This document shows, one piece after another, positions 13,801 to 63,838 of a stretch of 64,000 bases of DNA; the first letter of the stretch is position 1; every line of letters begins with the position of its first letter. The notes under the pieces are model-generated. The model ran no database searches, had not been told where the DNA came from, and worked only from the letters and a program-made list of their open reading frames with translations. The translations under genes were made by a program, and so were the position numbers. This DNA comes from Bolinopsis microptera (taxonomy: Eukaryota > Ctenophora > Tentaculata > Lobata > Bolinopsidae): positions 4,483,230 through 4,547,229 of the forward strand of contig NC_087079.1 of the NCBI RefSeq assembly GCF_026151205.1, written 5' to 3'.

Positions 13801-16800
13801 ATTCTGGTCCTGGAAATTTCATCTTCAAAAACTGAAAATGGGACAGAGTATGGGACAATATGATTTTCCATTTTTCTTGGAGATTTTGACTTCCACTACC
13901 CCAATTTGGTTTCATACCATCGTAAATTAACTGACTAATTGGTTTTTGGGCAAACATTTCATCCAATCTGTCAAATTTGTGTTCAGAAAATTTCATATTT
14001 GAAAATGGGACAGACTTTTGAAAATACAACTTTTCGATTTGTTAAACTTTCTGCTGTGGGCTTCCTCCGATCGAAATCAAATTTCCAGCACCTCAATCGT
14101 GTCATATGCCACCTATAGTTGACTGACTAATTGATTGCAGTCCATAAATTCGGTCAAAACTGTAAAATGTTGGTCCTGGAAATTTCATCTTCAAAAACTG
14201 AAAATGGGACAGAGTATGGGATCGGGACAATATGATTTTCCAATTTTCTTGGAGATTTTGACTTCCACTACCCCAATTTGGTTTCATACCATCATCAATT
14301 AACTGACTAATTGGTTTTTGGGCAAACATTTCATCCAATCTGTCAAATTTGTGTACAGAAAATTTCATATTTGAAAATGGGACAGACTTTTGAAAATACA
14401 ACTTTTCGTTTTGTTAAACTTTCTGCTGTGGGCTTCCTCCGATCGAAATCAAACTTCCAGCACCTCAATCGAGTCATATGCCACCTATAGTTGGCTGACT
14501 AATTGGTTGCAGTCCATAAATTCGGTCAAAACTGTAAAATGTTGGTCGTGGAAATTTCATCTTCAAAAACTGAAAATGGGACAGAGTATGGGACAATATG
14601 ATTTTCCAATTTTCTTGGAGATTTTAACTTCCACTACCCCAATTTGGTTTCATACCATCATCAATTAACTGACTAATTGGTTTTTGGGCAAACATTTCAT
14701 CCAATCTGTCAAATTTGTGTTCAGAAAATTTCATATTTGAAAATGGGACAGACTTTTGAAAATACAACTTTTCGTTTTGTTAAACTTTCTGCTGTGGGCT
14801 TCCTCCGATCGAAATCAAACTTCCAGCACCTCAATCGTGTCATATCCCACCTATAGTTGGCTGACTAAGTGGTTGCAGGCCAGAAATTCGGTCAAAACTG
14901 TAAAATTCTGGTCCTGGAAATTTCATCTTCAAAAACTGAAAATGGGACAGAGTATGGGACAATATGATTTTCCAATTTTCTTGGAGATTTTGACTTCCAC
15001 TACCCCAATTTGGTTTCTTACCATCATCAATAAACTGACTAATTGGTTTTTGGGCAAACATTTCATCCAATCTGTCAAATTTGTGCTCAGAAAATTTCAT
15101 ATTTGAAAATGGGACAGACTTTTGAAAATACAACTTTTCGTTTTGTTAAACTTTCTGCTGTGGGCTTCCTCCGATCGAAATCAAATTTCCAGCACCTCAA
15201 TCGTGTCATATGCCACCTATAGTTGACTGACTAATTGGTTGCAGTCCATGAATTCGGTCAAAACTGTAAAATGTTGGTCCTGGAAATTTCATCTTCAAAA
15301 ACTGAAAATGGGACAGAGTATGGGATCGGGACAATATGATTTTCCAATTTTCTTGGAGATTTTGACTTCCACTACCCCAATTTGGTTTCATACCATCGTA
15401 AATTAACTGACTAATTGGTTTTTGGGCAAACATTTCATCCAATCTGTCAAATTTGTGTTCAGAAAATTTCATATTTGAAAATGGGACAGACTTTTGAAAA
15501 TACAACTTTTCGTTTTGTTAAACTTTCTGCTGTGGGCTTCCTCCGATCAAAATCAAACTTCCAGCACCTCAATCTTGTCATATGCCACCTATAGTTGGCT
15601 GACTAATTGGTTGCAGTCCATAAATTTGGTCAAAACTGTAAAATGTTGGTCCTGGAAATTTCATCTTCAAAAACTGAAAATGGGACAGAGTATGGGACAA
15701 TATGATTTTCCAATTTTCTTGGAGATTTTGACTTCCACTACCCCAATTTGGTTTCATACCATCGTCAATTAACTGACTAATTGGTTTTTGGGCAAACATT
15801 TCATCCAATCTGTCAAATTTGTGTTCAGAAAATTTCATATTTGAAAATGGGACAGACTTTTGAAAATACAACTTTTCGTTTTGTTAAACTTTCTGCTGTG
15901 GGCTTCCTCTGATCAAAATCAAACTTCCAGCACCTCAATCGTGTCACATGCCACCTATAGTTGACTGACTAATTGGTTGCAGGCCAGAAATTCGGTCAAA
16001 ACTGTAAAATTCTGGTCCTGGAAATTTCATCTTCAAAAACTGAAAATGGGACAGAGTATGGGACAATATGATTTTCCAATTTTCTTGGAGATTTTGACTT
16101 CCACTACCCCAATTTGGTTTCATACCATCATCAATTAACTGAATAATTGGTTTTTGGGCAAACGTTTCATCCAATCTGTCAAATTTGTGTTCAGAAAATT
16201 TCATATTTGAAAATGGGACAGACTTTTGAAAATACAACTTTTTGTTTTGTTAAACTTTCTGCTCTGGGCTTCCTCCGATCGAAATCAAACTTCCAGCACC
16301 TCAATCGTGTCATATGCCACCTATAGTTGACTGACTAATTGGTTGCAGGCCATAAATTCGGTCAAAACTGTAAAATGTTGGTCCTGTAAATTTCATCTTC
16401 AAAAACTGAAAATGGGACAGAGTATGGGACAATTTGATTTTCCAATTTTCTTTGAGATTTTGACTTCCACTACCCCAATTTGGTTTCATACCATCGTCAA
16501 TTAACTGACTAATTGGTTTCTGGGAAAAAATTTCATCCAATCTGTCAAATGTGTGTTCAGATATCTTCAAAAATGAAAATGGGAATCCTGACTCAGGACT
16601 TGAAATACAACTAATTTCAAAATTTCTGACTTTTGGTCAATTTTGGTAACTGAATTTATTGTAACTTTGATTATTCGTAACTTAGGTTTGTGGTTTCTAC
16701 GGTTACTCGGACCGCTACACTGGTCATATTGAATTTCAACACTTTTAAAAGCAAATTATGAATAATATATTAAGCTGCAACATGTTGGAAATGTATATTC

Positions 16801-19800
16801 TTCCTGTTAATGACGTTAGCCCACTAAATTTGGTTGGGAGTCGCCGGATATTCTCAATGAAGCAGTGTTAAGTCTCTTAAGATTCGATTAAATTTAGCTT
16901 AAATAGCTAAAGTTTAAAATCTAATTTTAAGTTGAATATAGAAGCCACGAACGTGTTGTTTATCAATTAAATTGAATCTTTAATGTTTAAATGGACCACT
17001 TCACTTGTGACATGGGGGAAATTCGTTAAATGTGATAATATCTGTAATCTGTCAAAGAAAAATATGATCACCCGAACATCATATCATTCCACTAAACTAT
17101 GTAAATTAAGCATTTTAATGTTATTCCGCAGATATTCCGGAAGATAGGGAGCTGTCATTTCAACCCAATGTTGTCGCTGTGTTCACTCTTCTTTGGTAAC
17201 CTGTCCATCCTCTACTGCTTCCTCTCTTTCCTGGCTCAGATTGCAGCAGTCAGCCTCGCTACCTCCGTCCTTACTTCTCTTCATAGGGAGTACGACATAC
17301 TCTACGCAACTGTCTTTAAGCCAGAAGGTTGGTTGAATTTGGAAATTTGCTTTTATTACAGTTGCAACTTTGGACCGAAATTAGCTTGTAGTCAGGGGTA
17401 GAGAAAACTTGCCTTGTCCTAGATATTGGAAACAATTAGCTCGAGTCAGGGGTAGTGAAAACTCGCCTTGTCCTAGATACTGGAAACTAGATAGCTTGTA
17501 GTCAGGGGTAGAGAAAACTTGCCTTGTCCTAGATACTGGAAACAATTAGCTTGTAGTCAGGGGTAGAGAAAACTTGCCTTGTCCTAGATATTGGAAACAA
17601 TTAGCTTGAGTCAGGGGTAGTGAAAACTCGCCTTGTCCTAGATACTGGAAACTAGATAGCTTGTAGTCAGGGGTAGTGAAAACTCGCCTTCTCCTAGATA
17701 TTGGAAACAATTAGCTTGTAGTCAGGGGTAGTGAAAACTCACCTTGTCCTAGATACTGGAGACTAGATAGCTTGTAGTCAGGGGTCGTGAAAACTTGCCT
17801 TGTCCTAGATACTGGAAACAATTAGCTTGTAGTTAGGGGTCGTGAAAACTTGCCTTGTCCTAGATACTGGAAACAATTAGCTTGTAGTTAGGGGTCGTGA
17901 AAACTTGCCTTGTCCTAGATACTGGAAACAATTAGCTTGTAGTTAGGGGTAGTGAAAACTCGCCTTGTCCTAGATACTGGAAACAATTAGCTTGTAGTCA
18001 GGGGTAGTGAAAACTCACCTTGTCCTAGATACTGGAAACTAGATAGCTTGTAGTCAGGGGTAGTGAAAACTTGCCTTGTCCTAGATACTGGAAACAATTA
18101 GCTTGTAGTTAGGGGTAGTGAAAACTCGCCTTGTCCTAGATACTGGAAACAATTAGCTTGTAGTTAGGGGTAGTGAAAACTCGCCTTGTCCTAGATACTG
18201 GAAACAATTAGCTTGTAGTCAGGGGTAGTGAAAACTCGCCTTGTCCTAGATACTGGAAACAATTAGCTTGCAGTCAGGGGTAGAGAAAACTTGCCTTGTC
18301 CTAGATACTGGAAACAATTAGCTTGTAGTCAGGGGTAGTGAAAACTCGCCTTGTCCTAGATACTGGAAACAATTAGCTTGTAGTCAGGGGTAGTGAAAAC
18401 TCGCCTTGTCCTAGATACTGGAAACAATTAGCTTGTAGTCAGGGGTAGTGAAAACTCGCCTTGTCCTAGATACTGGAAACAATTAGCTTGTAGTCAGGGG
18501 TAGAGAAAACTTGCCTTGTCCTAGATACTGGAAACAATTAGCTTGTAGTCAGGGGTAGTGAAAACTCGCCTTGTCCTAGATACTGGAAACAATTAGCTTG
18601 TAGTCAGAGGTAGTGAAAACTCGCTTTGTCCTAGATACTGGAAACAATTAGATTGAGTCAGGGGTAGTGAAAACTCGCCTTGTCCTAGATACTGGAAACT
18701 AGATAGCTTGTAGTCAGAGGTAGTGAAAACTCGCCTTGTCCTAGATACTGGAAACTAGATAGCTTGTAGTCAGGGGTAGTGAAAACTCGCCTTGTCCTAG
18801 ATACTGGAAACAATTAGCTTGTAGTCAGAGGTAGTGAAAACTCGCTTTGTCCTAGATACTGGAAACAATTAGATTGAGTCAGGGGTAGTGAAAACTCGCC
18901 TTGTCCTAGATACTGGAAACTAGATAGCTTGTAGTCAGGGGTAGTGAAAACTCGCCTTGTCCTAGATACTGGAAACTAGATAGCTTGTAGTCAGGGGTAG
19001 TGAAAACTCGCCTTCTCCTAGATACTGGAAACAATTAGCTTGTAGTCAGGGGTAGTGAAAACTCGCCTTGTCCTAGATACTGGAAACAATTAGCTTGTAG
19101 TCAGGGGTAGTGAAAACTCGCCTTGTCCTAGATACTGGAAACTAGATAGCTTGTAGTCAGGGGTAGTGAAAACTTGCCTTCTCCTAGATACTGGAAACTA
19201 GATAGCTTGTAGTCAGGGGTAGAGAATACTCGCATTCTCCTAGATACTGGAAACTAGATAGCTTGTAGTCAGGGGTAGTGAAAACTCGCCTTGTCCTAGA
19301 TACTGGAAACTAGATAGCTTGTAGTCAGGGGTCGTGAAAACTCGCCTTGTCCTAGATACTGGAATCGATTAGCTTGTAGTCAGGGGTAGTGAAAACTCGC
19401 CTTGTCCTAGATACTGGAAACTAGATAGCTTGTAGTCAGGGGTAGTGAAAACTCGCCTTGTCCTAGATACTGGAAACAATTAGCTTGTAGTCAGGGGTAG
19501 AGAAAACTTGCCTTGTCCTAGACACTGGAAACAATTAGCTTGTAGTCAGGGGTAGTGAAAACTTGCCTTGTCCTAGATATTGGAAACAATTAGCTTGTAG
19601 TCAGGGGTAGTGAAAACTCGCCTTCTCCTAGATACTGGAAACAATTTTAATCGTACTCGAATATTCCTAAATATGTACAAAGTTAATTCTGACCCGATTG
19701 GGTTAGGTTGTTTTTAATTACTAAACTAAACCCGCTCTCCAGGAATATCGACCATGGCAATGTTAGTCGCAGAATTTTCTGGCTCACTTCTAGTGATAAG

Positions 19801-24271: not shown

Positions 24272-27200
24272 TCAAACTTCCGATGTTTCAAGGTCTGCAG
24301 ACTGCATAGAGTTTTGCTCCTGGAGAGCTGACTGAGAATTAGAGTTCTTGTCCATGAGGTCAACCGGGTCGATCTTCCTCTTGCACTTCGCACGTCTGTT
24401 CTGGAACCAGGTCTGAACTGAAATATATGGTATATTAGCATTTTGTTAGCATCTTGTTAACATCTTGTTAACATTTTGTTAACATCTTGTTAACATTTTG
24501 TTAGCATCTTGTTAACATTTTGTTAGCATCTTGTTAGCATCTTGTTAACATTTTGTTAGCATCTTGTTAACATTTTGTTAGCATCTTGTTAACATTTTGT
24601 TAGCATCTTGTTAACATTTTGTTAGCATCTTGATAACATTTTGTTAGCATCTTGTTAACATTTTGTTAGCATCTTGTTAACATTTTGTTAGCATTTTGTT
24701 AGCATCTTATTTCATAGATCTTTCAACATTGCGATGTTTAATGGGGAGCATCAAGACTCAACTTTGTGGAACAGGGCAAATAATTGAACTTTGTAAGCCG
24801 AGAGCCGTGATGGTCCCTAGTCCCTACTAAACACTACAATAGCATTTCGTTAACATTTTGATGGATATTTTTTGAAGATTTATAGTAGTGACTGAGCTTA
24901 TCGTAACGTAAAGTTAAATGGCTGAATTAATAGGAAAATGTGGCTGAACCTTTGGCGGGAAATGGTTGAGATATGTCTAGATTTGGTCAAAATGTCTCCG
25001 GAGTCCGGATTTTGTCCGGCTTTGGTCAACTTGATGAGTTTTTATTCTCCGACTGGAGGATTGCGGTGAAAAATGAGGAGCTTATTTTTTTTGACTGTGG
25101 GTGGTGGGATGGAAAGGCGTGACCATGGCAACGATAAACAATAGGCTCCACTCATAAAGTACGAATTTAGATATCTCTGCAATTAGACAGTGTTGTGTTT
25201 GTCGACTCAACTGCAGTGACTTAGAAGGTGTTGGTTCAACGATTCATTATACGTGACTTCGTGCTCAGATTTCAATTACTGGACAAAAAACATATAAAAT
25301 AGAACAGCTACCGACATATTTAGTCCCACCCGGCATTTTCTTTGATAGCATGAAGTATGTGTTAAAGTATCGTTTAAGTCAATGAAGGGACATGATAATC
25401 GGTAAGTGATTGTTACCCGTCAAACAAACTCCAGGTCACAAGCCAAGCCTCTCCGCTCGGGCAATGATTTCGGTATATTCCTAGTTTTATGATTTGGTGC
25501 CATACAAGTATCACTTTGCTCATCGATAGCTACACGAACCCTAATTTATGAAATTTGATATTTTAAAAGCACGGAAGTTGAACGGCAATGTGTTCAAAAC
25601 ATGAGGGATAGAATAAAAACACATTAAATTGACGTGATCACCACAGTTTCAAAGGACGGGAAATTTCCTCTTTAATTGTTTCACGGCTCAGCACCCCCCA
25701 GCTCAACTCAATTTTAAATCAATTTAACAATGATTTATCTCGCGGTAATTTTGAAATTTCCCATGCTCCACTCTAATCTGCCCGGGGTTACAACCAAACG
25801 TATTCTTAATTGATCACTCAATATAAAGAGGTGGTGGTCAAGGCAAGCTGCTACTATCACTTTGCTATTCCTGTCTGTTAAATCTGTGCAAATGATGATG
25901 TTTTGAGAACTAAAAAGGACCATTTAATGACCCGTAACTTTGTTTACTCAAGACTGGGAAATTGCAAGGAGTGTTTTACTACGTCGCTTATTGGACGGGA
26001 GAATTTTAATGGTCTATTACTTTGGGGCATTTAACTCAATCGTTTCAAACAAAATAGGCGTATAAATATTCAATCTGTAAACTTTAACTTACTTTATAAA
26101 GTTTGCACGACATGGGAAAGAAAGGTCCCGCTTTATTGAAAGTTTGCGGCTGATTGAAGTCTCAAAACATGTACGTGTACCAAATCCATTATCCCGTTCA
26201 TCAAGTGGTCACATTTAATGGATTCCAAGTAGTTACCTTGAACCGGTAAAAATGGATCTTTCCGATTATTCCCGAAGAAGAAATGAACTCTCTCCAAAGA
26301 ACCACCTACGTGGCAGCTGGTTATTTTGGCTTGGAATTATGATTGCCTGCGTGGCGTATTTGTCTCCGATTATTAGGGCAAGAGATATGGCACTGCGGGT
26401 GGAATTTAGGGAAACTCCACTTTCTCCCTAGCTCTACCCCTGTGTTGAGATAAATGCCAATTATTTTGTATTGCTAGGAAATTAGCATTAAAGTTAAAAT
26501 AATGTCAGACAGTGCTATTATCTCAACGTGACTAACGCCAAAGCGATTACCTTATTAAAGTGCTTATAATCGACTGCTCCTAGCTACTGGCACGCCAATT
26601 CAGCACGCCAATCGGTTCCCAGTTCTCGGGCGGGCAGCCAATCAGAGACAAGCATCTTCAGCAGGTGACTCGTTAATCGAGTTGGAGTATCGGTATTTAA
26701 CTTAGTCTGTGATTATCCCATTACTTTTTCGTTGCCCGTCAATCTTCACAAGTGAGGCGATTGAGACAGTGGTTAATAATTTAATAGTTTAATGCATTAG
26801 ACCGCATATAGAGCCGGTCTAGCACGGCTAATAAAATGGAAGTCAGCGTTTAGGAAGGGCTACCAGCAGTCAGTTTGCTGCATCTGTCCAATCAGGGTAC
26901 CTGTGCTCGGTCACGTGGGCCCTATTTCACTTCTTTAAATCAATTTTAAATCCTGTCAAGGCAATTTTAAAAAGCAATCAAGCGGTCAAGACTGGCCGTG
27001 GCAAGCGTAGCCAATCGAAGGTATGGCCTGGGGAATCAGTTAACTCGTTTTGTCGATTATGTAATGGGGTAATGGGGTTATTAGATAAGGAGGTAATGGG
27101 TCAGGTTTAATGACTGTGATTGGTGTGACTAACTCTGATCTCAAACTTAGACTTATCTAATATTAGAAGATCGCTTGAAGGGTTGTAACTGTCGGCTCTA

Positions 27201-32432: not shown

Positions 32433-35400
32433 TTAGCTGACTTGGTTCTGTTGTATGCTTTCTAAAGCCACTACGCCCCTGTTTTCAGGTTTCAGAGACA
32501 ACGGTGATTTTCTCCACAGCGTGATTTCCTGAGGGTGAGGAAGAGGTTAAGGATAGTTCCGGAACGTTTATGGATTGTGGGCAGAAGATAATGCAAATAT
32601 TTATTTTGATTAACTTTTTCATGTTATTGAATATACCCATTTTGTAACTGTAAACATAAAATTAGGGGTCGTTCACATATATTACGTAATTAGGGGGGTT
32701 CCCAAATCATTATGCTAGTGTAATATTGTATTGGTAAAACTGATAACGGAGCGGGGGTACAAATTATTAAAAAAATTAATAACGTATTATATGTAAACGC
32801 CCCTTAGTACGTTATTTCTAGTTAAATTTTCATAATATACGCCCGCTCAGATTGGTGAGCTTGCACTAAAGAATCTGACAAAGAGCTCTACGTTCTTCAA
32901 TCATTTCGCTACAATTTTTTTCCACCTTTGCATTTATTGTGCGATGACTCGATTTAATGATGTTTTCACTTTTGTCTTCAACTATCGATTAGAAGAGTTG
33001 TGTACATGGACACACCATTGCGGCCAACTGATTACTGTAACTTGCACTCCCCACACGACCACAGACCTCAATTTAGGGTGATATCTTGATCAGTCCTCAA
33101 TTATCTCAACTAACAAGCTATAGATCTTGAAAATTGAGACATTTGTGCGGAGATTAAGAAAATCTAAGGGCTTTTATAAACTATTCACTTGCATGGGGGG
33201 GGGGGGGGGGGGGGCACTTGCATGCTTACTTACACTCCCCCTTAAAATATCAGTTAAAATGTTGCTGACAATCAACACTGAACCGCAGCAACCTAATGTT
33301 AATGATTATAACTTATTATTTTGCGGTGTATGTTTTTGTCTGTGAAACAATGGTACAGATATATGTGTGATCATGCAAAGTGTTTGTTTTAAGGCCGGGA
33401 CCCCGATATCTTCAGTGGGTAGATTAAAACAAAGATTGACATTTGTTTCTAAACATGATTTAACCATTTGAGGATGGTGCATTAGGCTACAGTTTGAGTT
33501 TGAAAGCCAGAGATCAGAAACACTTTATTGGGCCGCAAAATCTAAACGGAAGGACTGGCCCCCAAATCAAAGGCAAAATTAACATATTTTGTCAATTTTC
33601 ATGGTTGACCCACCTCCCGTATTGGAGTGCAACGATTTATCTTCATTGTTTATGATGTTAATTTCACTTCTATTTAACGAAACTTTCCAATCAAGCTCAC
33701 ATTATTTATTATCAGAATATATTTACTGGACAAACCATTTTCCCCTTTCCGAAACCCGGACATTTCGCACAATTATTTTTTGCTGTTTTCTTCCGCGGGC
33801 TCAATCAGTCTCCACTCTCCAGCACTTAACACCAACGTACGTATCGACATAATTTTTAACCGTGATTCCCAACCGCGGCCGCCCGACATGGCATAGGGTC
33901 AAAATGCTTCCCACATCACATATACAGCTCTTGATGATGATTAATCACTCTACACTAAACTGTCACGTGTCTTTTTTAACACTTCCTCTAGGTGGCTCTG
34001 AATGACTATTGGAAACCCTAACCTTCTAATCTGATCCCAACCCTAACCCAATCCCTAACTGAAGCATATGCTCAATGCTGAAACCCTAACCCTAACGAGA
34101 AATTAGACCAACTTCCTTATATGGTCATATATCGTGATCGATACAGTTTGTCGCCGATATCTCGCTAGGGGAGCATTTTAAACCTATGTCATGTGGGGTG
34201 ATTCGGAATCAGCGTTCGAAAATACATCGAATCAGGTAGATTTCAACTGTCAGGGGCACTTCAAAAATCTCGAAGATCGACTGTAGAGGGATTTAGCACG
34301 CCCGTACAGCTCTACCGTTTTCTGATGAAAGTGCTTGAAAACCACTCAAAATTTCGAGATTTTTAAGTACTTTTGTCACTTTTTTGACCAATTTCGCCAT
34401 CTTAGAGTTAAGGGTGGCAAAAGGAGGTTTCTGGGGACCGGTGATTGGTTCTGATTGTTTTCAGATCAGGGACACTGATTGACCCAAAAAATAAAATTGG
34501 ATAACTAGATCAAATATTTCAGAAATGGCCTTTACGCACAGTTGTCAGAAAACAGTAGAACGTGTTGCTACCAGTAGAACGTGTTGCTTACAGTAGAACG
34601 TGTTGGGCATAACAAGTTTTAGCTGTTTTTATACCAATTCCAATTTGGTCAATTTATACCAATTGACCAAAATTTGGTAAATTAATAGGCATGGGGTTGC
34701 GAAAGAAACTAACAGGGGTATCTATGTATGATGTATCCCTCGACGCCAGTCCACAGTCGAATTCGTCTGGCTAGGTAGTACTTAGTAGGTATCATAGGTA
34801 TCAGCTTGAACATCCTCTCAAAATACAAAATTTACGTCTGTCGCGTCTAGCGAGGTGCGCGCGTTTGAACATCATGTAGTCAGATCACGCGCCAGTCTAT
34901 GCGCCAAAATAAATCAACCTTTTACGTTTAAATGTTTTAGCGCTCAACGTCTTATTCGATATCATACTGTGACTGATTGTCCCACGACCGGAACCTTGAT
35001 CCTGAATCTACTTTAAAGTTGTGGTCAGTGGTGTTGAATTATATTAAAATCGCAACTGAATCAGCGGTCACATTAAATGTTCAATAACTTTCACAGCGGC
35101 ACGTTAATCGATTACAAGAATTTTAAATCATGAACTTCCAGCTACCTGTTGTTTGAAATATCTTCGATCTTCTTCGTCCACTAGGACTAAATTGAGGTAA
35201 TATCTGACAGAGAATTTCTTGTTTACATCTTTCATTGTTGGCGTGAGATCGTACGCAGACAAAAACAGTCGGATGGGTATCGATTCACCTGATTGGGGAC
35301 ATACCGTTATTTTCCCTTTACGTCGATCGTAATCTATCTAATACTCCGCCAAATACCACAAGATCCATCATTAAAATTATTTGCCTTAATTACTGCAAAT

Positions 35401-38400
35401 AAATGATTAGAACTGATATCATTATATACTTTTTTATCTTATCTTATGATAAAACTCTTCACCTCTGACTGGGGCACCGTCCATGATCTCATATCTGTTT
35501 ATCTGCTCATTTTCGTTATACGTGTTTGGACCTAGTTGTTAGTTTAAAAAAACGTATTAATAAGTGATCAGATATTATAGGTAATGCATCTTGGTTACTT
35601 ATTGAAACAAGGAACAATTTCAAACAGTTGCAGTTTTATCTTAAAAACATGTTTTATCTTAAATATTTTTTAAAAAGTTAGCTGATCGCATCACACACCT
35701 GATCCCGTGGTTTCCCTTTTTATTATCGATAATTCCATGTGTTTTATCTTTATTCGCACCAAAATAAAGTAGATTTTACCGACGATCACATCGTTCAAAT
35801 GATACCTGAAATTGTTACCACACTAAATAAATACCACAACAATTACTGTATGCTATGAAATAAGTTATACAAAATGTTGTACATCTCTCAGTGAACAATG
35901 ATATCACTGCACAACGATTAGTGCACATTAGATAGTATCACTCGCTACATTCTAGAAGAAATGTTACAATAATGCACTAATTTTCTACTCAGTAATGTTT
36001 CCAACTTACTTGCTCCGATTGTATTCGAACTCTATATGCAAGCAATCCTCAATACCGACTTCCATTTTGAGGGAAGAGTTGGTTTCTGGGTAACTAGACA
36101 GTTGGTGTACCATCAGCTCCTTCTCATGTATAATGTCAACCAGACGTCGCGAGATTGTTACACGCAGAAAATACCTGGATTGTTTCTAGGTTACACGCAG
36201 AAAATACCTGGATTGTTTCTAAGTTACACGCAGAAAATACCTGAATTGTTTCTAGGTTACACGCAGAAAATACCTGGATTGTTTCTAAGTTACACGCAGA
36301 AAATACCTGGATTGTTTCTAAGTTACATGCAGAAAATACCTGGATTGTTTCTAGGTTACACGCAGAAAATACCTGGATTGTTTCTAGGTTACACGCAAAA
36401 AATACCTGGATTGTTTCTAGGTTACACTCAGAAATACCTGGATTGTTTCTAGGTTACACGCAGAAAATACCTGGATTGTTTCTAGGTTACACGCAGAAAA
36501 TACCTGGATTGTTTCTAGGTTACACGCAGAAAATACCTGGATTGTTTCTGTATACTTTTCGCAATGAAACCTACTAATTCTCTATTAACATAATCAGGTG
36601 TTAGTTACTTTACTTCCACACAATATGGCAATATTTGTTTTCTCATATTCATTTATTCGCGACAAATAGGTCATTTTAGCCGCATTTTAGCTGCATTTCA
36701 TTCCATTATTTTCATAATTCATAAATATTTAATATGATTTGATTGGTAATTGGCTGGATTGGTAATTTATTTGATTGGCAGTTAACCTTGATTAGTAATT
36801 AATTGTGGGGTATATTCTGATTTTGGGTGGGCCCTTGCTTGTACAGGAGTTGCATCTGCACTCGATATCTGTGTTTTGGTGACCCACAAGCCATTTGACT
36901 ATATACATTTTAAGTATTTTGCATAGTAAACTAGCTTGCAGATCCAAACTTTCTCAGGTATATTTTGTAGTTTAATCCATTGTGTAATTTTTCGATTGAT
37001 TTAAAAGATTTCAATTTTTTTATTAGGACCACTGCACGCAATAGTGCGACAGTTTCACTGCTAATTATTAATTAACGTCTGAACGATTAACCTCGTGGAG
37101 CATTGTGACAGTCATTAAGTTATATTACTTCAAATTGTTTATATAATAGTATAAACACGTAACAGTTATATTCAAGTTATATTTATAGAGTTTATAAACT
37201 CTAATATACTTCAGTTTATCGTGACCGTTGCGTTGGGAAACATTAAAGACGTATGAAAACTCTATTTCGTTATCTCACTTGCTTAAAACCAGAAAAGTGA
37301 AATCGGACACTACAAAGTCAGTTAGGCTAGAATTACACAAAAATGTTACATCACTCACTTCACTGTTAAAAAGCATCATCAAGCACCTTAACAAATGTAT
37401 TGAATATTATCTTTAATGATAATCTCAGAATATGTGTCTGTCTGTGTGTGCGTGTGTAATTTACGCTAGTATATATATATACTTTATATATATAAAGTAA
37501 GTATTTATATGTTTATGTTATCGTGTAAACCAGCAAACTACTTAAAGTAGAGTGTTAGATAAGAGTAGATAAGAGCAGATAAGAGTAGATAAGAGCAGAT
37601 AAGAGTAGATAGAGTAGATAAGAGTAGGATTTGAAAAGCCACTGATGTTATCTTCTTCTAATCCAAAGTAAAAATATGTAGATACATCCTTCAAATCATT
37701 TCCATCCTGTAGTACAGAGAGGAGATGTACTTTGAGGGTAATGAATGTTGCTTTGAGTAAAATCAGGGACAATGAAGTCCTTGGTGGTATCTATTTATAT
37801 TTTCTACAGCCAAACATGGTCACAGAGGCAAATGGATGACGCAGTATGTTAATGTTGATAAGTTCGTAGAATAGGTTTGCTCAGGCTCTATCCGCAAAAT
37901 AGTGGTCTGCGATCTAAAGCAATATCAATACATAAGAGACACTAAGAGATTGAGCTATAACTTTACTGAGACTACTTTAGGATATTGTTTATGTGGTACG
38001 AAATTTGGGGATTTTTCAAAAACATCCCCATATTTCAGAATGATGTGCAACATGAATATATATCTCCTAAGGTATAAAACATAAAAGGAGTAACAGTAAC
38101 CTGAGTCTAACATTGCGCCCAGTGTAGGACTCGTACTGTTTCACCACTTTAAGGAACTCGAAAGGAAACGAACAGGACTCTGTTAAATCCCCCGGTCTGG
38201 CCAAGTCCTTGTCCAACTTCACGAACTCGTAGTGGTTACCCCGGTCGTAGTAGATCTCTGGGGAGATAACGTGTTATCTCATACTTCTCTTATCTCCCCT
38301 ATCAGGAATTTAACTACGCATTTTAAGGCTGAAACAAGAACTTCAAGTAAGAAAATAAGAAACACTTGAAGCTTCACCAGCACTTGTAATTCCTACAAAT

Positions 38401-40448
38401 GGTAACTACTTGGAACTGCGCCAAAGTACCGCGGTTTCTTGACCAATGACGTCAGCTGCAAACTACATTACCGATCACTAACCGATTAAATGTATAAGGG
38501 TGATCATAGTGACATGTCATGATTGGTGTTTACACCCTGTACACTGTAGTAATAGTCTACAATTATACTGTTATAGCTATTGGATATTGCTCTTCAATTC
38601 TATATTGTTCCATAAGTTCAGCTGTCGCTTTAAACTGTCATCGTGTAAATGGAAGTCTTAGCCCCTATTATATTTCCCTAACAATCCTAGGAACTCTATC
38701 TAGATTAGCTCTATGTTTACCTAACAATCCTAGGAACTCTATCTAGATTAGCTTTATGTTTACCTAACAATCCTAGGAACTCTATCTAGATTAGCTCTAT
38801 GTTTACCTATCTGTCCTAGGAATTCTATCTAGATTAGCTCTATGTTTCCCTAACAATCCTAGGAACTCTATCTCGATTAGCTCTATATTTACCTAACAAT
38901 CCTAGGAACTCTATCTAGATTAGTTCTATGTTTCCCTAACAATCCTAGGAACTATATCTAGATTAGTTCTATGTTTACCTAACAATCCTAGGAACTCTAT
39001 CTAGATTAGCTCTATGTTTACCTAACAATCCTAGGAACTCTATCTAGATTAGCTCTATGTTTACCTATAATCTGTCCTAGGAACTCTATCTAGATTAGCT
39101 CTATGTTTACCTATCTGTCCTAGGAACTCTATCTAGATTAGCTCTATGTTTACCTATCTGTCCTAGGAACTCTATCTAGATTAGCTCTATGTTTACCTAT
39201 AATCTGTCCTAGGAACTCTATCTAGATTAGCTCTATGTTTACCTATCTGTCCTAGGAACTCTATCTAGATTAGCTCTATGTTTACCTATCTGTCCTAGGA
39301 ACTCTATCTAGATTAGCTCTATGTTTACCTATCTGTCCTAGGAACTCTATCTAGATTAGCTCTATGTTTACCTATCTGTCCTAGGAACTCTATCTTGATT
39401 AGCTCTATGTTTACCTATCTGTCCTAGGAATTCTATCTAGATTAGCTCTATGTTTCCCTAACAATCCTAGGAACTCTATCTCGATTAGCTCTATATTTAC
39501 CTAACAATCCTAGGAACTCTATCTAGATTAGTTCTATGTTTACCTAACAATCCTAGGAACTATATCTAGATTAGTTCTATGTTTACCTAACAATCCTAGG
39601 AACTCTATCTAGATTAGCTCTATGTTTACCTAACAATCCTAGGAACTCTATCTAGATTAGCTCTATGTTTACCTATCTGTCCTAGGAACTCTATCTAGAT
39701 TAGCTCTATGTTTACCTATCTGTCCTAGGAACTCTATCTAGATTAGCTCTATGTTTACCTATCTGTCCTAGGAACTCTATCTAGATTAGCTCTATGTTTA
39801 CCTATCTGTCCTAGGAACTCTATCTAGATTAGCTCTATGTTTACCTATCTGTCCTAGGAACTCTATCTTGATTAGCTCTATGTTTACCTATCTGTCCTAG
39901 GAACTCTATCTAGATTAGCTCTGTATTTACCTATCTGTCCTAGTAACTCTATCTTGATTAGCTCTATGTTTACCTATCTGTCCTAGGAACTCTATCTTGA
40001 TGCCCTGATGTTCCAGTTTCTTGCCCTCCTGTTTGAGTTTGATGGTTACTTTTCCCGAAACGTTATCTCCATCGTAGAAGAGATGTTGGTACTCCTTACC
40101 ATCGTCCTCGATTAAAACTGGAACTTTAGTTCTTGTTTCCTCGTCTTCTAGAACTATTGAGACTGTCGCTGAGTTACCGTATCCCAACCAGCTCTGTGAT
40201 GATTTTGCAATTTGTAATTTGTAATTTATACAGACGAATTGGTCGATGATATTTCACAGTTCTGTGTTTTAATATTCAGCAGTAGCCATTGCAATTAACA
40301 CTTTTTTCTCGTGGCATATTACAGTGTATTATGTACCAAAGCTTAAGGCTTATACTGTTTCTGCTTTCACGTGGTAAGAGCCAACATGGTCATTTCAAAT
40401 AGTCATAATTATAGATAACAAAATTCAAGGAATGTAACTTACCACCAT
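32433..40448 (-). CDS. VPS26: Retromer subunit VPS26, eight exons
   Basis: Arrestin-fold subunit of the retromer cargo-recognition complex on endosomes, binding VPS35. Minus-strand exons: 40448-40443 (ATGGTG only), 40193-39974, 38257-38101, 36174-36010, 35805-35699, 35531-35463, 35288-35146, 32528-32433; phases close to 320 residues, against about 327 in vertebrates. Recognisable blocks: HLFYDGDNVSGKVTIKLKQ, LEHQGIKIEFLGQIE, YYDRGNHYEFVKLDKDLARP, YFLRVTISRRL, SSLKMEVGIEDCLHIEFEYN, YHLNDVIVGKIYF, YEIMDGAPVRGESIPIRLFL, KKFSVRYYLNLVLVDEEDRR and EITLWRK. The tail after EITLWRK is short and diverged. Two introns carry tandem arrays that include the splice junction itself (36157-36549 and 38683-39990). 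The six-base first exon is the least certain part. Confidence 0.95.
32665..32804. mobile_element. 140-bp MITE in VPS26 intron 7
   Basis: Inverted ends GGGGTCGTTCACATATATTA and GGGGCGTTTACATATAATAC (complement of the right end) with a TTA duplication on each side (32662-32664, 32805-32807). A related, internally inverted copy lies at 58720-58885. No ORF. Confidence 0.7.
32805..35145. other. VPS26 intron 7, remainder
   Basis: It holds a G-run of about 20 at 33196-33215 flanked by repeated CACTTGCATG, a degenerate telomere-like stretch (AACCCTAACC) at 34013-34097, and three copies of CAGTAGAACGTGTTG at 34554-34608. No exon or other gene is recognised. Confidence 0.55.
36157..36549. repeat. 33-bp array spanning the VPS26 exon 4 acceptor, about 12 copies
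   Basis: On the gene's strand the unit reads CTAGAAACAATCCAG|GTATTTTCTGCGTGTAAC, where the bar is the splice acceptor and the right part is the start of exon 4. The copy adjoining the exon (top at 36174) is the functional one. Units are nearly identical, with CTTAG for CCTAG as the main variant. Using a distal acceptor would add an in-frame TAG inside each unit. Confidence 0.92.
36550..38100. other. VPS26 intron 3, remainder
   Basis: No exon is recognised. It includes a short imperfect array of AGAGTAGATAAGAGCAGATA (37552-37626) and TA-rich dinucleotide runs near 37470-37495. Confidence 0.5.
38683..39990. repeat. 43-bp array spanning the VPS26 exon 2 donor, about 30 copies
   Basis: On the gene's strand the unit reads ATAGAGTTCCTAGGACAGATAG|GTAAAC followed by ATAGAGCTAATCTAG. 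The bar is the 5' splice site; the left part is the end of exon 2 (IEFLGQI). The exon-adjoining copy ends at 39974. Two junction variants occur (CCTAGGACAGATAG and CCTAGGATTGTTAG), both keeping G|GTAAAC in most units. A block of about 600 bp (38808 on and 39415 on) is itself duplicated. Confidence 0.93.
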
Positions 40449-44607: not shown

Positions 44608-47309
44608 CTATTTTCCCGGACAAAGATTGTCACAGATGTTGGGATCAACGTTCGATAAGTTCAGTTCTCCGATTTTCTTTTCAAACTCTTCCTCCTCTTT
44701 ACTGGTGTCGATGTGAAGCTTGCCGTTTTCTTTGATTGGGGTTCTTTGTTCGAGCGCGTTCTTGTGTGAGCGCTTTCCCAGGCACCGCAGATGTTCTCTC
44801 GTTGTTTCAACCTGTTCTAGGAGGTTGCCTAGATCTTTCTTCATAGCGTAGGCATCTTCACCGTCTGCATAGTACTGAAATTGGAAACAAGTTCTGTCAA
44901 ATATCGACTGTTAAAATTGCCACGGTTTATTCTGAAATAATTTAATACAGAGTGGACAAGATAACAAAGTGTGATAATTGAGGACGTGTCACGTGACTCG
45001 AGCAAGTAATATTTGTGTATTATCAAAGCTATACAATCAGTACGCATAAGGCACTCCCATTGAACCAGGTAATATATCGTGGCAATTATTTGCAGCTACT
45101 AAAATACCACATACCTTAGGCTCAATGTCGTCCACCGCAAACTTCAACACAGTTTTGTACAAAGCCAGAGCAGCTCTGTTACTTTTTCTCACATGGAGAG
45201 ACACATATTTGGCCCCAAAGTTCTCCACCATAGCCCGAGATGCTTGGTCCATCAGCTTTTTAGCTAGACCCAGTCTCCGGTTAGAGCGCTTCACTGCCAG
45301 TGAGGTTATGTGACCGTGGGGGATCTGGAGGTAACCGTTTATCTATTTATTAAGATATACTGCAAGCTACAATACACATGGTACAATATACAAGGTACAA
45401 TATACAAGGTACAATATACAAGGTACAATATACAAGCTACAATATACAAGGTACAATATACAAGGTACAATATACAAGGTACAATATACAAGGTACAATA
45501 TACAAGGTACAATATACAAGGTACAATATACAAGGTACAATATACAAGGTACAATATACAAGGTACAATATACAAGGTACAATATACAAGCTACAATATA
45601 CAAGGTACAATATACAAGGTACAATATACAAGGTACAATATACAAGGTACAATATACAAGGTACAATATACAAGGTACAATATACGAGGTACAATATACA
45701 AGGTACAATATACGAGGTACAATATACAAGGTACAATATACAAGGTACAATACACATGGTACAATACATATGGTACAATATACAAGGTACAATATACAAG
45801 GTACAATATACAAGGTACAAGGTACAATATACAAGGTACAATATACAAGGTACAATATACAAGGTACAATATACAAGGTACAATATACAAGGTACAATAT
45901 ACAAGGTACAATATACAAGGTACAATATACAAGGTACAAGGTACAATATACAAGGTACAATATACAAGGTACAATATACAAGGTACAATATACAATATAC
46001 AAGGTACAATATACAAGGTACAATATACAAGGTACAATATACAAGGTACAATATACAAGGTACAATATACAAGGTACAATATACAAGGTACAATATACAA
46101 GGTACAATATACAAGGTACAAGGTACAATATACAGGGTACAATATAATACAAGGTACAATATACACACAATATAGACACAATATAGGTTCACTCAACATA
46201 TTTCCATAATTTGAGTTATTAACTTATTATTAAGTATTACAGGAAAACGATCATTCCAAGATATCTACAGTAGATTTAATAAATTAACACTTTTCTTACA
46301 TCATCTGGCTCTTCTTCCATTTTGGCGAGCACGTAACCGCATATTTTACCACTTTCATCCACTGCCACGTAACTCAACTGAGGCCAGCTCAGTCCGTGGT
46401 AAAAGTAATACCTGAAGTTAATAGGTTATAAAACATTTTACAAATTTTACATATTTTACATAATATATTTTATGTATTTCATAATGCATCATTATTAATG
46501 AACCATGGCGGGACTGGAGCATAAGTCAACACAATTGCAATGAGATGGAAGTACACTGAAAGATATTAGTATATAATTTGAAGATAGAGGAGAACAATTT
46601 CCCAACTGGATTGGAGTACTCGACCCTTCCATACATAGCAATCATGTAGGCAATGTATCGTTGCAATCATATGGCCCGGTGTAGACCGAATAAATCTTTA
46701 ATACAGGTTTAGTCATAACAACTATTTTTAAGGGTTAAATACCTTTCATGGAATTAACTGATGGGTTTATAATGTATATATACATAAATACCTCATTTCA
46801 TTTCATATTTACAAAATCATTGTTCGTTGTTAAACATCGTGATCATTTAATAATAATAATAATAATAGGATTATGGCCACATGGCCATCTCGACAAAACT
46901 TGAAACCCAACTGCACTCTACGCTATTGCAGTTCGCACAATATTATCAAAAAGAAAAATGTTCCTATCCGGAACATTTAATGATTAATTATTTTTAGGAC
47001 ATTTAAATGTTTATAAACATTTAAATGATCACGATGTTGAACAACGAACGATGATTTTGTAAATATGAAATGAAATGAGGTATTTATATCCTGCTCCTAT
47101 GATTAACCAATCAACACAATTCATGGAAGATCGTTAACAATGTCACTTGTTAGATCGGCTGACTGTGAGTGATGTGAACAAATGTGATTAATTAAATTAG
47201 ATTGTTTCAAATTAATGCCTTACTTCATCTGATAGTTTTCTGGCAAACAGAGAAGGTTGCAATGTTGCATGTTCATAAGGTCTGAGGTGGTGGCACATCT
47301 GATATGCAT
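44608..47309 (-). CDS. NAA10: N-alpha-acetyltransferase 10 (catalytic subunit of NatA), four exons
   Basis: GNAT enzyme that, with NAA15 on the ribosome, acetylates nascent N-termini. Exons on the minus strand: 47309-47224, 46411-46300, 45324-45115, 44874-44608; phases close to 224 residues. The first 155 residues are almost collinear with the animal protein: [71 protein letters not shown] (acetyl-CoA loop RRLGLA), [35 protein letters not shown]. The tail is a Lys/Glu-rich disordered segment, as in the family. Intron 1 holds a MITE, intron 2 a 14-bp array. A good acceptor (CTGTTCTTCTAG) lies 23 nt before the ATG. Confidence 0.96.
45365..46175. repeat. 14-bp array in NAA10 intron 2, about 58 copies
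   Basis: Unit ACAATATACAAGGT, starting 41 bp from the exon 3 acceptor, with a few ACACATGGT and GAGGT variants and occasional shortened units. The long open frames on all six readings are artefacts of the repeat. Confidence 0.95.
46784..47087. mobile_element. 304-bp fold-back MITE in NAA10 intron 1
   Basis: Terminal inverted repeats of about 70 bp begin ATAAATACCTCATTTCATTT and run through CGTTGTTAAACATCGTGATC; the centre has an (AAT)n run and GGCCACATGGCC. No ORF. Family unknown. Confidence 0.75.
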
Positions 47310-49734: not shown

Positions 49735-51670
49735 TCAATGCAAATGGTTCTACTTACTAAGACCTGCTAAGCTTTTGTCTCAAGTTCGAAACCTGTCGTA
49801 TTTAATAACCTGTCGTTTTGTAATAACTTTGATGATATTCCTGAACACCAGCTTCTACCATGTCTTGTAGTCAGTCACCTTTTTGAAGTCAGAGAATTGA
49901 TCAAAGAATCTGGCATCAAAACCTCATCGATTGATCCACTACCTAAAGAACTCTTGTCAGAGCACCTTGAGCTAATCCTCCCTACCCTTTGTGATATTAT
50001 CAACGTTTCTCTTTCAACCGGAAGTATGGAGGGAATCAAGTTAGCACATCTCACTCCCCTGATCAAAGGAGATTCCCTAGACACTGAGAACTTAAAGAAT
50101 TATAGACCCATCTCTAATCTTACATTCATCGGTAAACTCATTGAGCGCTTTGTATTAAAATGCCTCAATGAACATCTAGCCAAGAATAATCTCAACATTG
50201 ACCACCAGTCTGGTTACAAAAAGCATCACAGCACAGAAACACTCCTCATTACCATAGTCAATGACCTCCTCATAGCCACTAATGAAAACACAGCAACAGT
50301 TGTAATGCTTTTAGACCTGAGTGCTGCATTCGACACAGTTGACCATTATATCAAATTGATCAATATATTGACGTGTGAGATTGGGATTGCGGGAACAGCC
50401 TTGAAATGGTTCGCCAGCTTCATCCGTGGTCGTTGTCAAAAAGTCAAGATAGGTGACCTAGAATCTGAAGAAATTGTAATAAAGTTTGGTGCCCCACAGG
50501 GCTCTGTCCTTGGCCCTGTGTTGTTTAATATCTACATATGCTCAATTTACTCTTCTGTAAAATCGAAGCAATTTCTGATCCATGGCTATGCTGATGATCA
50601 CCAGATCTACAAGTCATTTTCATCTGCTACAGAATATCAAGTCCTCAGCGAAGACCTGCCCTCCTGTTTTAGAGAAATCGAGACCTGGATGACGAACCAC
50701 TTCCTTCTTCTGAATCCAACTAAAACTGAAATTATAATTTTTGGTTCAAAACGTTTATTGTCAGAATTAGAAATTGGTGGTGTCTTCCTTAAATCTTCTG
50801 TCTGTATAAGACTTGTTAACGTTACTAAAAACATTGGCTTTACATTGGATTCCTCTCTGACTCTTAATCCTCAAATAAAGAAGCTTAAAGCTGCAAACTG
50901 CCACAAGATGCGGAATATTGCAAAGATGAAACCATTCCTCTCTGAAGATCAAATGCAAATCATCGTACAATCTCTTGTTATTAGTTCCCTTGACTACTGC
51001 AATGCACTTTACTATGGTACTAATCATTCTGTTTTGAAACAGCTACAATCTCTGCAAAACAGAGCATGTCGCTTAGTTAAAGGTCTAAAGAGGAGAGAAG
51101 AAGTTGAGCCCTACATAAAAGAACTTCATTGGCTTAAGGTACAAGAACATATTGAATTTAAAATACTCCTGCTAACTTTCAAACTGCTCCATGGACTAGC
51201 ACCTTCATACCTTGTCAAGTACAATCCCAGTGGTGGCAGAGATGTGTCTCTTCATTGCCCTATAAACAGTCCACCAAGAGCATTCTCTTCATCTGCTCCA
51301 AGATTATGGAACAACCTTCCTCAAGAAATCAGGAAATGTGTAAACATCAATGACTTTAAGGGAAAACTAAAAGCTCATCTGTTTAGAAAGTCCTTTGATA
51401 TGTACTGAGTATATAATACATTATCAGAAGATTTTAAAATCTTCATCCTACAGCAGGTCAATTTTACGCTTTAAATTAAATTATTCTAGGCTTCTAATTT
51501 TTTTAGGATTTTCGGGCAACATTCAAGATATTATTCTTTTCCGTGTTTCACTGTGTCGGCCAATAAAATTGTAGTGTAGGTCAGAAAAGGAGGCTCTATC
51601 CCGGGACACCAACATTTTTTGGGTTGGCACCCAGGAGAAAGCTGCCTTTAAGCAATAAGGAGACACATAA
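49735..51670 (+). mobile_element. 5'-truncated LINE (CR1/L2 type)
   Basis: It carries the reverse transcriptase half and a 3'UTR of about 250 bp. No endonuclease region is present, as expected of a copy cut short during reverse transcription. Ends are approximate. Confidence 0.8.
49897..51408 (+). CDS. LINE reverse transcriptase, partial ORF2
   Basis: About 503 residues; the frame is open upstream to about 49770. Motifs: HLTPLIKGD, NYRPISNLTFIGKLIERFV, LLDLSAAFDTVDH, FGAPQGSVLGPVLFNIYICS and catalytic YADD (GYADDHQIYKSF), then SLDYCNALYYG, RACRLVKG, LHWLKVQEHIEFKILLLTFK, and a C-terminus RAFSSSAPRLWNNLPQEIR. The RT core is unbroken. The sequence is quite unlike the LINE at 5862-8966. Confidence 0.85.
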   Translation: MIKESGIKTSSIDPLPKELLSEHLELILPTLCDIINVSLSTGSMEGIKLAHLTPLIKGDSLDTENLKNYRPISNLTFIGKLIERFVLKCLNEHLAKNNLNIDHQSGYKKHHSTETLLITIVNDLLIATNENTATVVMLLDLSAAFDTVDHYIKLINILTCEIGIAGTALKWFASFIRGRCQKVKIGDLESEEIVIKFGAPQGSVLGPVLFNIYICSIYSSVKSKQFLIHGYADDHQIYKSFSSATEYQVLSEDLPSCFREIETWMTNHFLLLNPTKTEIIIFGSKRLLSELEIGGVFLKSSVCIRLVNVTKNIGFTLDSSLTLNPQIKKLKAANCHKMRNIAKMKPFLSEDQMQIIVQSLVISSLDYCNALYYGTNHSVLKQLQSLQNRACRLVKGLKRREEVEPYIKELHWLKVQEHIEFKILLLTFKLLHGLAPSYLVKYNPSGGRDVSLHCPINSPPRAFSSSAPRLWNNLPQEIRKCVNINDFKGKLKAHLFRKSFDMY

Positions 51671-62593: not shown

Positions 62594-63838
62594 TATTAAT
62601 CAACTATATACAGCAAACACAAGATAATATAAATTAAATCATAAAATCGAGTGGCCGAGTAGTCTCGACTCACCCATAACTTCTCCAAAGGCGTCTATCA
62701 TGAGCTTTGTACACTAAATCATTAAAATTACTTAAACTAAATCTTTTATTTACAATCACAATAATTTGTTTTGTCATAATGTCTTTTAATAATAAATCAA
62801 ATAAATTTGAACGAGGTCTGCCCCTCCTTCCTTTGTAGTCAAAACATCCTAAACATGCAAATCTGAAAGATAAGAAGGCGGGAGTGTCATCACCGCTTCT
62901 GAGAACGTGCCCAAGCATCTTCCATCTTGCTTTCTTGATCCTTTCAGTAAGGGGTCTGACATTACATCTCTTATATAAATTCTCGTTGCTGATAACCGTA
63001 GGCCAATAGGTGTTGATTATCTGTCTCAGATGCTTCCTTTGAAGAACGTCGACAGATGCCATTACGGTTTCAGGAGCAGCCCAGCTGCTACAGTTATACA
63101 ACAACACTGAAGTGACAAGAGCTTCGTACAGCTTCAGCTTTCTACTCTCACTGATCTGAACAGAGCTATTCAACCAGACTTTCTTGTAGGTGTAGAAGGC
63201 AACATTGGCTTTGTTGCGTCTGTTGACAATATCTCTTTCTGAACAGAGCTTTGATCCTAATAGCACTGACTCTCGCCACTCTTCATCTCCTCTAATTTTA
63301 TTGCCATGGGCATCTAAAGCATCTGTATCTGCCAAATACACTCTTGTAAACACCGTCTTTGATTCGTTAACAAAGAGACTCCAATCCTTTAGTATATCAC
63401 TGGCAATCTCTAGTATCTTCACCAGGCTCTGACCATCTTCACTCAGAAGCTCAGCATCGTCAGCATAGGCGGACTCTAACGGGAGGCCTCTATCAGAGAC
63501 TGGGGGGTTCGGTCTAGGAATCGTGACACTGATCACGGCTCTGATGTGATTCAGGGCACCGGCAAGGGTCAATGTAAACACTTTACCTGCCAGACTGTCT
63601 CCCTGGTAAGCGCCAATATTAATCACAAATTCACCAGACTCAGATCTGTTGACCGTCACCTTGAGCTTTGTATTTGAGAGGAGGTACTGAACTAGGCGAA
63701 TGTCGTCTCTAGAGCATCCTGCATCAATGAGGAGGTTGATGATGGTCTGTCTGCGGATAGTATTAAACGCAGCGGTCATGTCAATGTTGATTTTACTATA
63801 CTCAAACTCGCGCCTGGTAACCACTGATGTCAACATTC
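62594..63838 (-). mobile_element. 5'-truncated LINE with 11-bp target duplication
   Basis: AGGTAGTGAAT flanks it exactly (62583-62593 and 63839-63849). The copy starts within the RT domain and ends with a short 3'UTR. It landed in an older palindrome-type element. Confidence 0.8.
62670..63836 (-). CDS. LINE reverse transcriptase, partial
   Basis: 388 residues, unbroken from the truncation point to the stop. Motifs: NIDMTAAFNTIRRQTIINLL, GAYQGDSLAGKVFTLTL, catalytic YADD (SAYADDAELLSEDGQSL), VNESKTVFTRVY, LYEALVTSVLLYNCSSWAAP, ARWKMLGHVLRSGDDTPAFL, GRRGRPRSNLFDLL, AHDRRLWRSYG. The GAYQGDSLAGK block is unlike the PQGT/PQGS form of the other two LINEs, so it belongs to another clade (RTE- or R4-like, uncertain). 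Confidence 0.85.
   Translation of the reverse strand: MLTSVVTRREFEYSKINIDMTAAFNTIRRQTIINLLIDAGCSRDDIRLVQYLLSNTKLKVTVNRSESGEFVINIGAYQGDSLAGKVFTLTLAGALNHIRAVISVTIPRPNPPVSDRGLPLESAYADDAELLSEDGQSLVKILEIASDILKDWSLFVNESKTVFTRVYLADTDALDAHGNKIRGDEEWRESVLLGSKLCSERDIVNRRNKANVAFYTYKKVWLNSSVQISESRKLKLYEALVTSVLLYNCSSWAAPETVMASVDVLQRKHLRQIINTYWPTVISNENLYKRCNVRPLTERIKKARWKMLGHVLRSGDDTPAFLSFRFACLGCFDYKGRRGRPRSNLFDLLLKDIMTKQIIVIVNKRFSLSNFNDLVYKAHDRRLWRSYG

Follow-up and report, generated by a model that had tools for sequence, protein, structure and literature searches.

Minisatellites across splice junctions of two consecutive introns of the VPS26 gene in Bolinopsis microptera

The VPS26 locus and its donor array

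How is the correct donor selected when the end of an exon, together with its 5' splice site, is repeated about 30 times in tandem in the intron that follows? This question is raised by a minus-strand gene in the window, i.e., the whole stretch of 64,000 nt of Bolinopsis microptera DNA analysed here, which a preliminary description had taken for VPS26. The assignment stands: a Pfam profile search yields a match to PF03643 (E 1.3e-129), and the predicted protein is similar to the solved structure of VPS26B (2r51, E 5.2e-142), with the solved VPS26A also close. The coding sequence consists of 320 codons from eight joined exons, followed by TAA, and the coding region spans ~8 kb. When the protein was searched against the animal's own genome (264.65 Mb), all seven matches were found at one locus and none elsewhere; given 320 open codons and the only VPS26 locus found, a pseudogene is not supported. 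The features of the gene are the following (window positions).

40443..40448, minus strand: end of exon 1, first two codons ATG GTG (from exon joining)
39974..40193, minus strand: exon 2, whose last 28 nt (39974-40001) served as founder for the exon portion of the 43-nt unit
38258..39973, minus strand: intron 2, 1716 nt, roughly three quarters taken up by the array
38678..39973, minus strand: 30 intronic units, each an exon end with donor (28 of 43 nt, two of 46 nt)
38101..38257, minus strand: exon 3 (from exon joining)
36175..38100, minus strand: intron 3, 1926 nt
36175..36549, minus strand: array of 11 additional exon 4 acceptors, at the 3' end of intron 3
36010..36174, minus strand: exon 4, whose first 18 nt served as founder for the exon portion of the 33-nt unit
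35699..35805, minus strand: exon 5 (from exon joining)
35463..35531, minus strand: exon 6 (from exon joining)
35146..35288, minus strand: exon 7 (from exon joining)
32433..32528, minus strand: exon 8, coding part including the TAA stop

Exon 2 thus lies between introns of 249 nt (intron 1) and 1716 nt, and exon 4 between introns of 1926 and 204 nt. At four of the seven VPS26 acceptors, including the founder of the acceptor array described below, AG is directly followed by GT (window 35289-36175, minus strand).

Exon 2 ends in ...GGACAGATAG/GTAAACAT (39974/39973; slashes mark splice boundaries), a weak donor that agrees with 6 of the 9 letters of CAGGTAAGT. The tandem copies of 43 bp reported previously are confirmed by a TRF call at 38685-40001 (period 43, 30.5 copies, 94% matches, score 2167); in addition, an 18-nt piece of the unit matches the window 30 times, whereas shuffles predict 0.08 matches, and with these two results a chance repeat is rejected. 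In the sense order, the unit consists of 15 intron nt (GTAAACATAGAGCTA) and 28 exon-like nt ending in GACAGATAG, and its founder straddles the exon 2/intron 2 junction, taking in the terminal 28 nt of the exon and the opening 15 nt of the intron, so that the exon part is longer than the ~22 nt originally given. The terminal 28 nt of exon 2 agree with the unit consensus in 27 letters, and the intronic run, as assembled, continues for 30 units down to 38678. A DNA query of two units against the same genome gave at least 20 matches, and the 20 listed are all in the donor array; with the unit found nowhere else among these matches, a dispersed satellite that landed in VPS26 is not supported.

Across the 31 unit boundaries (the native one and the 30 intronic ones), GT is kept at 27, i.e., at 26 of the 30 distal ones, and AGGT is likewise present at 27/31. 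The native nine letters, TAG/GTAAAC, occur at 24/31 and TAG/GTAAAT at 3/31, whereas the other four boundaries read GG, having lost the T of GT; the earlier count of about 30 near-identical donors therefore holds for most units but not for all. There are 11 distinct unit sequences once the 3-nt insertion is removed, arranged with a block repeat of 14 units (9/16 units identical at that lag). Within the unit, the donor letters do not stand out in their diversity, and special selection on them is not seen. Every unit also keeps, 27 nt before its end, the motif CTAAT, which is branch-point-like by consensus. The length of intron 2 is no multiple of the unit.

The acceptor array and the choice of sites

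A mirror array, absent from the preliminary description, is located at the other end of the next intron. At 36157-36549, a unit of 33 nt, CTAGAAACAATCCAG/GTATTTTCTGCGTGTAAC, joins 15 nt of intron 3 to the first 18 nt of exon 4 and is present in 11 upstream copies (10 units of 33 nt and one of 32 nt). AGGT is found at all 12 boundaries of this array, and each acceptor is directly followed by a donor motif (CAG/GTATTT). The pyrimidine tract before the acceptor, CTAGAAACAATCCAG, is poor by eye, and this includes the native exon 4 acceptor; the length of intron 3 is no multiple of 33 nt. With one array across the exon 2/intron 2 junction and another across the intron 3/exon 4 junction, two consecutive introns of VPS26 are affected.

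The reading frame separates the copies. Joined to exon 3 in silico, the first distal donor boundary leads to a stop after 96 residues and the other 29 to a stop after 90, in agreement with the original statement that a distal donor breaks the frame or meets a stop; thus, among the donors tested, only the first gives the full protein. Use of the upstream acceptors, also in silico, results in a stop after 134 residues in 10 of the 11 cases and after 130 in one. Furthermore, a protein of a relative (P0002; 321 aa, 98% identical over the query) contains the native exon 2/3 and 3/4 junctions. It comes from a contig of 1,858 nt, compared with the ~8 kb of the VPS26 coding region, and this contig is therefore probably a cDNA of the relative, which itself may lack the arrays. 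Taken together, the frame and the relative's protein indicate that the exon-proximal sites are the correct ones. The exon 2 end and its donor at the unit boundary were placed properly from the outset.

We consider it probable that both arrays are minisatellites which crossed splice junctions, that exon definition picks the exon-proximal sites, that nonsense-mediated decay deals with the errors, and that the arrays are tolerated passengers. Judging from the anatomy, the first minisatellite would have started when the exon 2/intron 2 junction of single-copy VPS26 was duplicated in tandem; slippage and block duplication would have raised the number of intronic exon ends with donor to 30, and the second minisatellite would have arisen across the intron 3/exon 4 junction. 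By analogy with human data, the exon 2 acceptor most likely pairs with the nearest, first-transcribed donor, and the exon 4 donor with the nearest acceptor; early-stop products of the other copies would be removed by nonsense-mediated decay. The arrays would then be mainly passengers rather than a device with a selected function.

The human data in question are those of PMC9225289. According to the available text of that study, where near-equal donors precede a long intron in human genes, the winner is the donor nearest to the upstream acceptor; this preference for the upstream donor is stronger if the preceding intron is short and clearest in the short-long class, and in exon-defined minigenes with two identical donors the upstream one was used exclusively. 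Acceptors in the class with a long intron before and a short one after mimic exon definition. In these classes, exon 4 is long-short, and exon 2 is short-long, although at the border, with an intron 1 of 249 nt against a cut-off of <250 for short introns. Hence, for both arrays, the human rule points to the correct site, and we infer by analogy that the rule applies to VPS26 in this animal as well. The choice of the first donor, previously called a real puzzle, is to this extent less of one, given the published rule and the introns around exon 2. A further point in favour is IFI6, where splicing reportedly uses two downstream repeat units as well as the native donor (PMC4526556, in the text available). 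Several statements in PMC9225289 count against the account: for acceptors of long-long exons, the upstream preference is lost only in part; the downstream donor has the advantage in ~60% of all human events when strength is left uncorrected; the classical in vitro rule cited in the study selects the donor with the shortest distance across the intron; and when the twin donors were weakened, larger minigene exons were skipped, the VPS26 donor being weak as well.

Other readings of the two arrays are less likely. Dual-specific or recursive splicing could buffer both arrays, a further round of splicing removing the errors. Owing to the AG at the end of the exon tail, a segment included by use of a distal donor starts with GT and ends with AG, as is the case for 30 of 30 such segments, and could be removed in that round to give the correct mRNA. 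Moreover, CAG/GTATT is recreated at all 11 upstream acceptors, a possible ratchet towards the last copy, and the branch-point-like CTAAT recurs in every unit. Against this reading, exons often end in AG anyway, the pyrimidine tracts are poor, and several nearer AGs occur within the unit; in addition, the real intron 2, at 1716 nt, is no multiple of 43, and a 59-nt acceptor array beyond the window reads CTACAG/GC, without AG/GT. Although second-step removal is discussed for dual-specific sites in repeats (PMC10809524, in the text available), we regard this reading as unlikely for VPS26. Its genome-wide extension is about as unlikely: minisatellites would repeatedly engulf the junctions of ordinary genes, which would survive because GT...AG segments left by wrongly chosen copies are excised in another round, dual-specific boundaries thus acting as self-correcting ratchets ending at the exon-proximal site.

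A selected role of the donor array, such as holding U1 or slowing splicing, both suggested in the preliminary description, or setting the share of unproductive VPS26 mRNA, could be read from the 27 GT donors within one intron and from the occurrence of arrays in two introns of one gene. We find it improbable given that GT is lost at four boundaries, that block duplication homogenised the array while the donor letters vary as the rest of the unit does, and that arrays are common locally (~16% of 264 kb). Tandem arrays are also prone to assembly error, and the true genome might have one or few copies; nevertheless, with 11 distinct unit sequences in a definite order, in an 18.5-Mb contig, and with similar arrays at other exon ends, an artefact is very improbable, the exact copy number being uncertain.

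Arrays near other exon ends

A further question is whether VPS26 is an isolated case. Two likely further cases lie beyond the window, at exons predicted without homology. A predicted coiled-coil exon ~47 kb away (L018:7255-7662) ends in GAGTCTGAGAG/GTAAGA; next to it comes a 34-nt array in which the boundary AGAG/GTAAGA recurs eight times and three more boundaries have AGAA before GTA, the last at the array end. At ~98 kb (L028:8433-8674), a 59-nt array contains four CTACAG/GCACAT acceptors, the last of which opens a predicted exon. Pfam gave one match below the cut-off for the former exon and none for the latter. At five myosin loci, inspected by eye, 3 of 15 arrays with a score of at least 100 are within ~13 nt of a splice site, and an intact splice site is copied in none of these three; the automatically called junctions of seven myosin loci (16 introns) were left out.

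For a broader count, exons were predicted in the 264 kb without homology, with codon scores from five window genes and a general splice consensus; this predictor missed VPS26 exon 2 and placed exon 4 11 nt off. Near-end arrays were those that stopped no more than 30 nt outside or 9 nt inside the end of a predicted exon. With the window excluded, 58 arrays were compared with random placement, and the near-end arrays numbered 11 versus 3.1 expected at exon threshold 10 (p<0.001), 10 versus 2.2 at threshold 13 (p<0.001), 6 versus 1.6 at 16 (p 0.006) and 4 versus 1.3 at 19 (p 0.04). Among the same 58, there is no enrichment of arrays that run 10-45 nt across an exon end (3, 2, 2 and 1 versus 2.9, 2.1, 1.5 and 1.2 at thresholds 10, 13, 16 and 19). 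The zone 31-90 nt from the exon end is also raised (8, 7, 6 and 4 versus 4.3, 3.1, 2.3 and 1.9 at these thresholds), so that part of the near-end effect reflects a preference of arrays for introns. In the joint test, 12/58 arrays were found versus 4.2 (p 0.0005) at threshold 13 and 8/58 versus 3.1 (p 0.01) at threshold 16 with the window excluded; with the window included, p was 0.007, 0.0015, 0.02, 0.11 and 0.12 at thresholds 10 to 22, and a 15-nt limit at threshold 16 gave p 0.12. Single-site calls at 15 settings gave ratios from 0.8 to 3.4, ~1 under lax settings, and the other edge tests gave 6/154 array edges versus 1.2% and 15/65 edges versus 12.5%. The evidence for clustering of arrays near exon ends beyond VPS26 is thus suggestive and falls short of proof. 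The simplest reading is that arrays expand within introns until they reach the exons, the occasional crossing of a junction being tolerated; a mechanism that targets splice sites is not supported by these results.

Several further arrays were noted. A 22-nt array (window 24435-24705, minus strand) with the motifs GCTAAC and GTTAAC, branch-point-like by consensus, stops 17 nt short of a homeodomain exon's acceptor. In a GNAT acetyltransferase gene that resembles NAA10 by eye, a 14-nt array (window 45363-46165, minus strand) occupies the greater part of an intron and stops ~38 nt before the acceptor. An array of 55 nt in 41 copies (window 17379-19646, plus strand) makes up ~94% of an intron of an aquaporin-like gene with a weak MIP match (E 1.2e-5); another, of 366 nt, has 12.5 copies with 96% matches (window 11980-16584). 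In L017 (plus strand), a predicted exon has a 10-nt array upstream (2556-3208), which stops 12 nt short of it, and an 11-nt array downstream (3362-3567), which starts 8 nt beyond it. At L028:4866-5383 (minus strand), a 48-nt array extends from the final coding codons and the TAA stop of an EF-hand gene; reading-frame ends, like splice sites, can thus be copied. Long open frames, putative non-LTR reverse transcriptases by eye, are present at window 5718-8966 (plus), 49771-51408 (plus) and 62670-63836 (minus).

Comparison with known systems

The VPS26 locus suggests that a splice junction can become a minisatellite without loss of the gene. It amounts to a natural experiment on splice-site choice, with 27 GT donors followed in the next intron by 12 near-identical acceptors, in a conserved gene in which each wrong site tested in silico leads to an early stop. 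Order, proximity and exon definition could be measured here with site strength held equal, and a dose series would be available should copy-number alleles exist.

Among the known systems, the human IFI6 minisatellite, with a repeat unit of 12 nt, is the closest precedent. VPS26 shares with this type the donor-bearing tandem units (27/31 with GT), the first of which overlaps the exon end. As far as the available text of PMC4526556 goes, the IFI6 minisatellite is likewise located at an exon end with a donor in each unit, and two downstream units act as donors besides the first, giving three mRNAs. Relative to this description, what is new in VPS26 is the frame-breaking unit of 43 nt, the 27 GT boundaries, the matching acceptor array of intron 3 and the setting in a conserved gene found once in the genome, with likely further cases nearby.

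The other parallels, each drawn from the text available for the source, are less close. In human UBC (PMC10809524), AG/GT is also present at the unit boundaries and each can potentially serve as donor and acceptor, but the units are coding and the introns are multiples of the unit, neither of which holds for VPS26, where the array is intronic, the acceptor lies outside it and double use is a potential read from sequence. In the potato RdRp gene, a case of intron gain (PMC4974935, which also states the AGGT model), tandem duplication across a splice junction similarly copied the signals; there, however, a single duplication led to a new intron, whereas in VPS26 there are 30 and 11 extra copies within introns, with no new intron apparent. 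A worm minisatellite has been linked to alternative splicing (PMC4039745), with no copied splice site in that account as available. Finally, the system of PMC9225289 resembles VPS26 in that identical donors compete and position decides, although it involves two donors in human cells, compared with 27 donors in an uncharacterised animal.
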